A stretch of DNA of 42,358 nucleotides from Deltaproteobacteria bacterium (lineage in GTDB: Bacteria; Desulfobacterota; Syntrophia; Syntrophales; UBA2210). The DNA lies in assembly GCA_019313905.1 (NCBI GenBank), contig JAFDAI010000010.1, forward strand, positions 1-42,358. The letters are read 5' to 3'. Positions within the stretch are counted from its first letter, which is position 1, and each line of letters begins with the position of its first letter. Position numbers and translations under genes: made by a program. Shown here one piece after another: positions 15,213 to 18,836 of this stretch. The notes below the pieces were generated by a model. The model saw nothing but the letters and a program-made list of their open reading frames with translations, had not been told where the DNA came from and did not search any database.

Positions 15213-17327
15213 ATGAGTCCTGATTTCTTTTACTCCACCGGACGCATCCTTAGATGTTTTTACCGCATAAGCACCCTGATCACAACTCCACTCCGGGATG
15301 ACGACATCCTTCAGAAAATCTTAGATGAAGCGGTAGATACAATGGGGTTTCACATGGGGGTAGTATGTCTGTTGGATGAAAAGAAAGAGAAACTGGTCAC
15401 TAAAGCAGTTAAAAATTACAATCCAGAGGAAACTAAAATAGCATTTTCGGAAAGTCTAAACCTGAAAAGGCACGACTGTCTCATGACAAAAGTTGCAAAA
15501 ACCGGCAACTATATCGTCCTTGAAAATTCGAGAACAGATCCCAGGATTACTCTCACAGACCACAAGATAACAAACCGCTACAAGATAGGGGATGACTTTT
15601 ACTCGGCCTTTTGCGGTCCACTCAAGATAAAAGACGATATTATCGGCATCATAGCCATGTGGTACGAGAAGAAGACCAAATTTCCACCGGAAGTAGTAAA
15701 TACCCTGCTGGCCTTTGCAAATCATGCAAGCATAGTAATACATAATTTGAGATTATTTGAAGACAATCGTCAGAAAATCAAAAGACTGCAGGTATTACAG
15801 GAAGCGGTATCCCAGCTGAATTCAACTTACGCCCTAGATAAGATACACGAAATCGTGATAGACAATGCCCTCAGGATAGGAGACGCGGACAGGGCGTTGA
15901 TGTATTTTCTGGACACAGAAAAAAACAAATGCCTGATAAGCACCGGGGAACAGGTATTCCTGGATGAAGAAAACATATACTATCCGAAGATAGGACAAAG
16001 CATCATCAAGAAAACCCTGGATACCGAAACTATTATAGTTCAAACTCCTCTTCAGGATCAGGACACAACACCCATATTTAACGGTTATCCTTCGGAGATA
16101 GCTGTTCCACTGAAAATAAAAGACAAATTTAAGGGTGTACTCTATCTTGGTAAAAAACACGGAGGTTACTCAAAAGACCAGAAAGACACTCTGGATATAT
16201 TCATCATAAACGCCGCCGTTTCATATGATAGCGCGATTATGCATTCCCGGCTTTCCATCGAAGCAAAATCCTTGAAAACAGAAGTTGAAATACTCAAGGA
16301 AAAGGAAAATGAGTTGTTGGGTTTTCATAATATCATAGGAAATTCCAAGAAGATGGTAGACATATTTCACATGATAAGCGATGTGGCCAAACATGACACG
16401 AGCGTACTCATACAGGGTGAAAGCGGTACCGGAAAAGAATTGATAGCCAGAGCGATTCACAGGCAGAGCGCTAGAAAATCAAAGCGCTTTGTGGAGATAA
16501 ATTGCGCGGCGATACCAGGAACTCTGCTGGAAAGTGAACTATTCGGTTATGAAGCCGGCGCTTTCACCGATGCCAGAAAGAGAAAGTTGGGCCTTCTTGA
16601 ACACGCAAACGAAGGAACGTTTCTCCTGGACGAGATAGGCGAAATGAATCCTTCGATACAGGCAAAGTTTCTCAGAATGCTCGAAGACAACCATATCCGC
16701 CGGCTTGGAGGCATACAAGATATCCCTATCGATGTCCGATTTCTATTTTCCACAAACAAAGATCTGTGGCATATGGTGGATGAAGGTACCTTCCGGGAAG
16801 ATCTTTTCTACAGGATAAACGTTATTCCGATTATCATACCCCCCCTTAAAGACAGAATTGAAGATATTATGCCCCTCGCATATCACTACATTGAAGAGTT
16901 CAACACAAAACTGAACAAGAGCGTAAAAGGTTTCACAACCGGCGCGGAGAAAATTTTAAAAAGATACCCATGGCCTGGAAATGTGCGGGAGCTGAGAAAC
17001 ATTATCGAAAGGATTATGATATTTCAGAGTATAAGCACCCTTATTACATCTGATAATATTCCCGCGGAGATCAGGGTCGCGGCGCCCCGGACACCGGAAA
17101 TAGATACCAGCAAATTATCTTCTCTGAGTTCATCTTACCCGATAGACTACAGGAGCACGATAGCTGGATTGACAAACAAAATCAAAAAAGAGATCCTTAA
17201 AAAGGCGCTCCAAGTCAGCCGCGGCAATAAGGCAGCAGCCGCAAGACAACTTGGTATCTCACGCTATACCCTTATACGCGAACTGAAGAAACTGGAAAAT
17301 AATCTTTTAAATAATGCCACTCCATAA
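15213..17327 (+). CDS. GAF-GAF sigma-54-dependent transcriptional activator
   Basis: A 704-residue bacterial enhancer-binding protein. Two N-terminal GAF-type sensor regions (about residues 25-180 and 205-345) are joined by helical linkers to an AAA+ domain. That domain has Walker A GESGTGKE (402-409), Walker B LLDEIGE (471-477) and a distal GNVRELRN. A Fis-type helix-turn-helix ends the protein (GNKAAAARQLGISRYTLIRELKKL). The sigma-54-contacting GAFTGA loop reads GAFTDA (449-454), with Asp in place of the second Gly. It follows the EF-G paralogue by 18 bp. Downstream lies a palindrome and a -24/-12 promoter in front of a universal stress gene, a likely target. The signal sensed is unknown. 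Confidence 0.9.
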   Translation: MSPDFFYSTGRILRCFYRISTLITTPLRDDDILQKILDEAVDTMGFHMGVVCLLDEKKEKLVTKAVKNYNPEETKIAFSESLNLKRHDCLMTKVAKTGNYIVLENSRTDPRITLTDHKITNRYKIGDDFYSAFCGPLKIKDDIIGIIAMWYEKKTKFPPEVVNTLLAFANHASIVIHNLRLFEDNRQKIKRLQVLQEAVSQLNSTYALDKIHEIVIDNALRIGDADRALMYFLDTEKNKCLISTGEQVFLDEENIYYPKIGQSIIKKTLDTETIIVQTPLQDQDTTPIFNGYPSEIAVPLKIKDKFKGVLYLGKKHGGYSKDQKDTLDIFIINAAVSYDSAIMHSRLSIEAKSLKTEVEILKEKENELLGFHNIIGNSKKMVDIFHMISDVAKHDTSVLIQGESGTGKELIARAIHRQSARKSKRFVEINCAAIPGTLLESELFGYEAGAFTDARKRKLGLLEHANEGTFLLDEIGEMNPSIQAKFLRMLEDNHIRRLGGIQDIPIDVRFLFSTNKDLWHMVDEGTFREDLFYRINVIPIIIPPLKDRIEDIMPLAYHYIEEFNTKLNKSVKGFTTGAEKILKRYPWPGNVRELRNIIERIMIFQSISTLITSDNIPAEIRVAAPRTPEIDTSKLSSLSSSYPIDYRSTIAGLTNKIKKEILKKALQVSRGNKAAAARQLGISRYTLIRELKKLENNLLNNATP

Positions 17328-17571: not shown

Positions 17572-17587
17572 TGGCATTGTTTTTGCG
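17572..17587 (+). promoter_or_regulatory. Predicted sigma-54 (-24/-12) promoter of the usp gene
   Basis: TGGCATTGTTTTTGCG matches the consensus TGGCACG-N4-TTGCW at the key positions: GG at -24, GC at -12, and exactly 10 bp between them. Transcription would start about 12 bp after the GC, leaving a leader of roughly 75 nt to the usp ATG. The remainder of 17374-17571 shows no gene. Confidence 0.7.
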
Positions 17588-17673: not shown

Positions 17674-18195
17674 ATGATAGAATATCCTAAATACAAGAAG
17701 GTTCTTTTTTGCACAGATTTCTCTGAAAATGCAGATTATGCCTTTGAGTTCGCTTTTGGTGTTGCCAAGAGAGATGGAGGCCTTCTCTACATCCTACACG
17801 TGAAAACTGATATTGCAGACCAGGCATATCTTGAGGGGACAGGGGATCAAGGGTCGTACCCGGAGATAACGGAGGCCATAAGGGAAACCGCTCAAAGAGA
17901 GCTGGATAATAATTTTCAAGAGCACTATGCAAAAAAGATAGAGGGCATCCCGTTTGAAATCGTTACAAAATCCGGCAGGGAGTATCAGGAAACAATTGGG
18001 TTTGCTGAAGAGAATGATGTGGATCTTATTGTTATAGGCACTCACGGAAGAACAGGAATGAAACATACCTTCTTCGGGAGTGTTGCCGAGATGATCATCC
18101 GGCATAGCCCGGTTCCTGTTTTTGTAATTCCGTCCAAGGAAAGAGCCTGGCCCACTTATCCGGATGAAAAACCCTCCTCCCACACCCCTATGTAG
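17674..18195 (+). CDS. Universal stress protein, UspA family
   Basis: A 173-residue cytosolic UspA-fold protein. The N-terminal YKKVLFCTDFSENADYAFEFAF and C-terminal IGTHGRTGMKHTFFGSVAEMIIRHSPVPVFVIP are diagnostic. The latter carries the ATP-binding G-x2-G-x9-G-S pattern, so it likely belongs to the ATP-binding subgroup. AAGGAG precedes the ATG at good spacing. The gene sits alone behind a predicted sigma-54 promoter and next to a sigma-54 activator, suggesting inducible expression under stress or nitrogen/energy limitation. Exact role unknown. Confidence 0.93.
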   Translation: MIEYPKYKKVLFCTDFSENADYAFEFAFGVAKRDGGLLYILHVKTDIADQAYLEGTGDQGSYPEITEAIRETAQRELDNNFQEHYAKKIEGIPFEIVTKSGREYQETIGFAEENDVDLIVIGTHGRTGMKHTFFGSVAEMIIRHSPVPVFVIPSKERAWPTYPDEKPSSHTPM

Positions 18196-18262: not shown

Positions 18263-18299
18263 GTGCCTCTCTGAATGGTAGCCCCTATCGGGGAGGCAC
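18263..18299. other. Stem-loop downstream of the usp gene
   Basis: GTGCCTC (18263-18269) pairs with GAGGCAC (18293-18299). An alternative inner helix, CCCC/GGGG (18282-18285 with 18290-18293), overlaps it. No T-run follows on the plus strand. It could be a processing site or weak terminator. Confidence 0.4.
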
Positions 18300-18372
18300 G
18301 CAAAAGAGGTTAACATGGTTTTTCACATATGCAATTAGCCATTAAGTATGGAGCAGGTTTAATCAAAATCTT

Positions 18373-18576
18373 ATGTATGTAAAAGCGAAGAAAAGTAAAT
18401 CAATACATACTATTGAGAATAGCCGGGCAGTTTCCCGGGAATCTGAGAAAGATCAGCAGGAAACGGCTATTTTAACGCCATCGGCCAACAGCGAAGATGA
18501 AGACTCCGTAGAAAAGAAACCAAAAGATGGCAGCTTGAGTGAAAAATTTTTCCTTTCGAATCCTCCTGAAGATTAA
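18373..18576 (+). CDS. Possible small acidic, disordered protein, 67 residues
   Basis: Begins MYVKAKKSKSIHTIENSR and becomes acidic and low in hydrophobic residues (PSANSEDEDSVEKKPKDGSLSEK). No domain or signal is recognisable. There is no good ribosome binding site upstream of 18373. It ends 7 bp before the first of three tandem stem-loops. Codon composition is unremarkable. It may be a chance frame in a non-coding region; the call is weak. Confidence 0.3.
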   Translation: MYVKAKKSKSIHTIENSRAVSRESEKDQQETAILTPSANSEDEDSVEKKPKDGSLSEKFFLSNPPED

Positions 18577-18583
18577 AGCAGTT

Positions 18584-18795
18584 GCCGGTGAGTGGTTTTT
18601 GTTGTTCTCTCCTTTCCACTCACCGGCCCCCCCCAAATCCGGAGGTTAAAATAACGGTTATCGGTTTATACGTCGGTGGGTGGTTCTATTGTTCCCTCCT
18701 TTCCACTCACCGACACCCCCCTGTGAATCTGAGAGATCTATTGTCTCTCTGTTTACATATCGGGTGGCTGGGGTTTTTGAAATCTTCCGCCACCC
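18584..18795 (-). ncRNA. Three tandem stem-loops, candidate structured RNA (3' UTR of ychF or separate sRNA)
   Basis: Hairpin 1 has a perfect 12-bp stem (18584-18595 with 18616-18627) and hairpin 2 a 12-position stem (18672-18683 with 18703-18714). These two are homologous, with a compensated C/G to T/A pair and one G-T change, so stem pairing is kept while sequence drifts. Hairpin 3 has a 7-bp stem (18762-18768 with 18789-18795). On the minus strand the loops of 1 and 2 read AAAGGAGAGAACAA and AAAGGAGGGAACAA, and loop 3 also begins with GGA. A smaller hairpin (18731-18749) lies between 2 and 3. The strand is uncertain; minus is chosen because the loops carry GGA motifs and ychF ends 41 bp away. 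Confidence 0.45.
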
Positions 18796-18836
18796 ACCAT
18801 ATCATTCTCTACAAAAACACCCGTCTTCTTCTGCCA

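Follow-up and report, generated by a model that had tools for sequence, protein, structure and literature searches.

A conserved C-rich-loop RNA and linked small protein in Syntrophales-like Desulfobacterota: a putative sigma-54-dependent operon

The tandem hairpins at 18560-18836 of the window (the whole analysed stretch of 42,358 nt, contig JAFDAI010000010.1) are part of a regulatory RNA family that had not been catalogued before and is confined essentially to one order within its phylum; we refer to it as the C-loop RNA. Small RNAs of this kind, with C-rich loops resembling the anti-Shine-Dalgarno (anti-SD) sequence, are already known, but this family, its small protein partner (the FFLS protein) and its sigma-54 wiring are undescribed in the sources searched. 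With a probability of roughly 0.7, we consider the locus to be a sigma-54-activated operon that encodes the small protein and an anti-SD C-rich-loop sRNA, the C-loops of which pair with Shine-Dalgarno (SD) sequences.

Four hairpins follow each other on the plus strand. Hairpin 1 (H1, 18584-18627) has a stem of 12 perfect pairs (18584-18595/18616-18627) and the loop UUUUUGUUGUUCUCUCCUUU, and hairpin 2 (H1', 18672-18714) has 12 pairs of which one is G-U (18672-18683/18703-18714) and the loop UUCUAUUGUUCCCUCCUUU. As the first-pass annotation had stated, the two are diverged copies: they lie 87 nt apart, are 87% alike over 38 nt, and differ by a compensatory change from C-G to U-A at the second pair and by a one-sided change from A-U to G-U. 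Each copy is followed by a single-stranded C-run, the first at 18628-18635 (kept in alignment A1) and the second, ACCCCCCU, at 18715-18722 (kept in alignments A1 and A2). Next comes H2 (18722-18757), with the stem AAUCUGAGAGA...UCUCUCUGUUU, a conserved AUA box behind it, a fold z of -3.6 and covarying columns 67-73/98-104 in A2, and then H3 (18762-18795), a hairpin at the terminator position that lacks a U-run here. The same annotation had counted three tandem stem-loops; hairpins are indeed present at all three of its sites, but it overlooked H2, which is also kept in relatives, and its third hairpin (H3) is not a copy of the first two. Compared with shuffled sequences, the stems of hairpins 1 and 2 fold with z values of -7.1 and -5.4. 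The region 18560-18836 as a whole reaches -5.7 on the plus and -5.1 on the minus strand, better-than-shuffle folding on both strands being what palindromic DNA would generally give.

A 311-base query retrieved related sequence throughout the window's order (Syntrophales-like Desulfobacterota), and 40 distinct hairpins could be aligned as GNCGGTGGGTGG-TTTTnnGTTCCCTCCTTT-CCACCCACCGNC-CCCCC. In this alignment standard pairs make up 96% of the pair cells, and double changes occur in 59 cells, compared with 17.3 after shuffling; the covariation signal disappears once the partner column is shifted by one to three positions. Kinship alone can lift sequences above shuffles without any structure, but here the shifted controls and the double changes concur. 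The loop motif is near-invariant while the stems vary (UUCCCUCCUUU loops, 40 hairpins), and the loop UUCCCUCCUUUCC is the most conserved part of the RNA. A covariance model built from the 40 aligned hairpins (R1) found the family in 86 of the order's 155 genomes, which between them represent 42 of its 53 genera; together with the covariation this strongly supports the earlier view of a regulatory RNA selected at the RNA level. Hairpins 1 and 2 (E 5.9e-11 and 4.9e-11) form the single R1 locus of the window's genome. In 395 genomes sampled from the phylum outside the order, R1 gave a single weak match (G323); inspection showed it to be low-complexity sequence, and it was rejected as chance, as was a hairpin at an 'Aquificota' locus (L056).

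Across relatives the transcript is laid out as H1 in one or two copies with the C-rich loop, the C-run, H2 (CUGARAGG...CCUYUCAG, then UUUAUAUA) and H3, and both H1 and H2 show covariation. H3 is an intrinsic terminator with a U-run in most relatives, often with the same CCCUCCUUU loop (e.g., GGCGGATGGTTTAAGTCCCTCCTTTTCCATCCGCCTTTTTTT), so that one to three near-identical C-rich loops occur per RNA, the terminator loop included in many loci. The window's genus has kept the H3 hairpin but lost the U-run. A 183-aa plus-strand ORF that starts at 18582 and would make the hairpins protein-coding was rejected, since loop lengths vary from 14 to 22 nt and the frame is not kept. In Rfam, neither a scan of the window nor a permissive one of the region (up to E 5) yielded a family for the hairpins; all that turned up was a tRNA and one miRNA match due to chance. 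The literature, searched with partial coverage, held nothing on the C-loop RNA or the FFLS protein.

Some loci deviate from this arrangement. In genus g3 (L094, L096, L105, L089) the C-loop RNA occurs in another context, where activator, FFLS ORF and sigma-54 site were not found; three of the four loci have two RNA copies about 300 nt apart. The sequence upstream is similar among the g3 loci (TAAGG...AAATCAGATACACTCCCATTG...TTACACC) and therefore perhaps represents a second promoter type. In genus g11 (L130, L149; same contigs in G040, G054 and G124) the C-loop RNA is encoded at two loci separated by about 11 kb; in the loci read, the sigma-54 promoter is present and the FFLS ORF absent, and the second locus lacks H2 and a recognisable terminator. 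Genome G144 (L180; C135, C187) has seven R1 matches, some of them in odd or decaying contexts, hinting at a local expansion of the hairpin.

On the evidence of the sequences, the plus strand is the transcribed one. Across the family, the nine inner pairs of the conserved stem contain 18 G-U and no A-C cells in the plus reading, and every one of these wobbles would be an A-C mismatch on the minus strand, which argues for plus. Hairpin 2 is likewise perfect on the plus strand only, as its G-U turns into an A-C mismatch on minus (-21.7 vs -17.3 kcal/mol). Of 49 loci, 32 have a terminator with a U-run downstream on the plus strand and two have one on the minus side, against 3.7% of random windows. 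The promoter evidence concurs with the wobbles and terminators. An exact sigma-54 consensus (TGGCAY-N5-TTGC) is present within 450 nt upstream on plus in 34 of 56 loci, compared with 2.8% of random windows, and with one mismatch allowed it is found in 32 of 50 loci on plus and in none of the 50 on the minus side (control 4.2%). For all three lines of evidence, kinship among the loci makes formal p-values too favourable, but the strand contrast is unaffected. In about 40% of the loci, among them those of a genus whose upstream context is different, no sigma-54 site is recognisable within 450 nt.

The window itself contains a single match to TGGC[AG][CT]N5TTGC on either strand, the -24/-12 promoter TGGCATTGTTTTTGC (17572-17586, plus). 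It lies upstream of the universal stress protein gene usp and at the same distance from the hairpin as in a relative (1,016 nt in L002), while in most other loci the promoter is 50-360 nt before the hairpin. The genome encodes rpoN. Further upstream on the same strand is a gene for a sigma-54-dependent enhancer-binding protein of 704 aa (15213-17327), with a Sigma54_activat domain (Pfam, E 1e-66), GAF_2 in two stretches, an AAA+ domain and a Fis-type HTH_8; it did not reach the cut-off of any named NCBIfam equivalog among those listed. Orthologues with at least 50% identity are located upstream on the same strand in at least 37 of 56 RNA loci, the number being capped by how much flanking DNA was examined. 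This adjacency suggests activation by a specific enhancer-binding protein, and the 15213-17327 product is likely the activator of the operon.

The first-pass annotation saw no convincing gene in this region, but an ORF for an acidic protein of 67 aa with the C-terminal SEKFFLSNPPED (18373-18576, plus), here called the FFLS protein, has homologues in the same place in relatives. Its stop is 7 nt before hairpin 1. The homologues (58-78 aa) are encoded between promoter and hairpin in most loci and share the C-terminal S-x-x-FFLS/P-D/E, often a second FFLS or FFIS mid-protein, and little else. In six of the seven ORF pairs tested dN was below dS, which supports that the ORF is protein-coding. No Pfam or NCBIfam family matches the protein. 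AlphaFold2 modelled it with a mean pLDDT of 63, mostly at low confidence and with one short helix at FFLS, and outside this motif helix it is predicted to be largely disordered. Since it is acidic and mostly disordered in the prediction, a docking peptide seems likelier than an RNA-binding domain.

Between promoter and FFLS ORF, the window carries usp (17674-18195, plus; Pfam Usp). By tblastn this arrangement was found in the window's genome and its nearest relative only (L002/L082 only). In other loci the promoter stands directly 5' of the FFLS ORF, which suggests that usp is a recent insertion. A further plus-strand hairpin at 18263-18300, between usp and the FFLS ORF (GUGCCUCUCUGA...UCGGGGAGGCAC, -23 kcal/mol, z -4), is possibly a processing or stabilising element.

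In most loci the hairpins come immediately after the FFLS ORF, with a terminator closing the array, so they could act mainly in cis, as the 3' UTR of the FFLS mRNA, protecting its 3' end, terminating transcription or autoregulating the operon, with no targets in trans. The loop of hairpin 1 can also pair over about 9 bp with the SD of usp in its own operon. We nevertheless think this unlikely, since a mere stabiliser would not need a loop that is far more conserved than stems and ORF, and since stand-alone RNAs exist in which no FFLS ORF was found and whose own sigma-54 promoter lies 52-169 nt ahead of the hairpin (e.g., L101, L125, L126 and L130). Such loci indicate that the RNA is an independent unit. 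The idea that the usp SD covaries with the loop of hairpin 1 found no support, as L002 has the same usp SD but a different loop.

In the preferred reading, an operon for a small protein and an SD-pairing sRNA, the element would be the 3' portion of a transcript made from the plus strand under sigma-54 control, comprising H1 with its C-rich loop in one or two copies, the unpaired C-run, H2 and the terminator hairpin. The adjacent GAF/AAA+ activator would switch on the promoter upon a signal, and the RNA would be made jointly with, or processed from, the message for the FFLS protein of about 70 aa, and alone in some relatives. The 3' end of bacterial 16S rRNA is CCUCCUUU. The invariant plus-strand loops GUUCCCUCCUUUCC match its anti-SD end, a resemblance that had already been pointed out; the 16S gene is absent from the window's assembly, so this identity is with the general bacterial sequence. 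As UUCCCUCCUUUCC is a copy of that end, the most likely action is pairing with the SD regions (AAGGAGGG) of several mRNAs, and such pairing would block ribosome loading. Hfq (PF17209) was detected in none of 60 genomes of the order, the window's genome lacks hfq as well, and an Hfq-dependent sRNA was ruled out on these grounds; the pairing would thus be Hfq-independent or involve another helper. A search of the genome for complements of the loop gave 24 places with at most one mismatch and 32 for a reversed-pattern control, and hence no excess, and the few located at start codons (L158, the fmt-like L166 and L156) were unconvincing. For the SDs of genes in the window, predicted pairing with ychF (-17.4) and hppA (-14.9) was among the strongest, values that are ordinary for SD sequences.

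The C-rich loops and C-runs might instead bind an RNA-binding protein, so that the plus-strand RNA would serve as a protein sponge with CsrB-like logic and C-rich sites. One to three near-identical loops per RNA are reminiscent of multivalent sponge RNAs, and this would suit an order without detectable Hfq. We found no candidate C-binding protein, and SD pairing explains the anti-SD match of the loop more simply, which makes such a sponge highly doubtful.

The first-pass annotation had favoured sequestration of CsrA/RsmA by the GGA loops of an RNA from the minus strand. GGA is indeed present in loops 1 and 2 on that strand (AAAGGAGAG and AAAGGAGGG), but in hairpin 3, for which the same had been claimed, the GGA is partly within the stem. 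CsrA (PF02599) is absent from the window's genome, which is 98.83% complete; the annotation itself had named such an absence as refuting its proposal. Among 60 relatives csrA is present, patchily, in 19 and absent from 30 of the 47 RNA-bearing genomes, with no significant association between RNA and csrA (Fisher p 0.19); a metagenome-assembled genome may miss a gene, and a single absence is weak evidence, but absence over many near-complete genomes is not. As csrA is missing and wobbles, terminators and sigma-54 promoters all place the transcript on plus, where the loops have no GGA, a CsrA sponge is very unlikely. Chance hairpins or DNA-level repeats, such as terminator clusters or mobile palindromes between convergent genes, are hardly credible either: although the operon and ychF converge around the hairpins in 28 of 56 loci, the hairpins also occur away from ychF, the loop is conserved order-wide with a G-U bias in the stems, and the element has a single locus in its own genome and a constant position behind activator and FFLS gene.

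A speculative extension, which we regard as possible though on the whole unlikely, is that the FFLS protein and the C-loop RNA under one sigma-54 activator are the order's main post-transcriptional control in Hfq-less, mostly CsrA-less syntrophs, that the FFLS motif anchors the RNA or its targets to a partner associated with the ribosome or an RNase, and that the system arose independently of the alphaproteobacterial CcaF1-CcsR operon. The RNA has no Rfam family and the linked protein no Pfam or NCBIfam family. The RNA occurs in most genera of a syntrophic order that is important in anaerobic degradation and in which Hfq was not detected, and it provides a tangible candidate for post-transcriptional regulation in these bacteria. 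The single-contig genome G052 has the locus at C1:~584,300-584,800, and the RNA is probably present in a cultivated species, which makes the proposal testable.

Compared with known systems, the RNA resembles CsrB and RsmZ in its repeated hairpins that share a loop motif, but differs from CsrB, RsmY and RsmZ in that its GGA loops are found on the non-transcribed strand only and its genome has no csrA; the CsrB/Rsm models of Rfam gave no match up to E 5. The Qrr sRNAs are Hfq-dependent and are not known to have a linked small ORF. In Vibrio the sigma-54-dependent sRNA gene qrr1 adjoins the gene of its activator LuxO (PMC8043402). The -24/-12 promoter upstream (34/56 loci vs 2.8% in the control) and the adjacent activator gene are similar here, but qrr1 is divergent from luxO, the RNA and the input domain of the activator are different, and no Hfq was detected in the window's order.

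Analogues are also found in Alphaproteobacteria. The rhizobial NfeR1 (alpha-r14) has three hairpins with an identical anti-SD motif unpaired in each and stems that vary, and its loop motifs silence mRNAs redundantly at the ribosome-binding site (PMC10746234). Both carry a C-rich anti-SD motif that is conserved and left unpaired in the loops, whereas the motif is CCUCCUCCC there and UUCCCUCCUUUCC here, the stems are also alike here, and promoter and gene context are different. The loop motif of the CcsR RNAs is C-rich as well. In Rhodobacter sphaeroides, the CIN1 locus (CcaF1-CcsR) has a gene for a protein of about 70 aa followed by tandem sRNA hairpins (CcsR1-4, the cuckoo RNAs), the whole being preceded by one alternative-sigma promoter and closed by a Rho-independent terminator (PMC10253847). 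The exact CCUCCUCCC of the cuckoo, CcsR and alpha-r14 RNAs is absent here, where the motif is CCCUCCUUU, and no Rfam match was obtained up to E 5, Rfam possibly not including every alpha-r model; the C-loop RNA thus appears analogous to CcsR and alpha-r14, with no homology found. The CcaF1-CcsR operon also differs in using RpoHI/HII instead of sigma-54 with an adjacent activator, in encoding a DUF1127 protein where the operon here encodes the acidic FFLS protein (DUF1127 is not among the matches), in lacking any sequence-family match and in belonging to another phylum. Both share a gene of about 70 aa followed by tandem hairpins, a single alternative-sigma promoter, a terminator and C-rich loops. 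The C-loop RNA locus is a second case in which a small protein is combined with tandem anti-SD hairpins and an alternative sigma factor is in control, and its occurrence here and in Alphaproteobacteria looks like convergent evolution.
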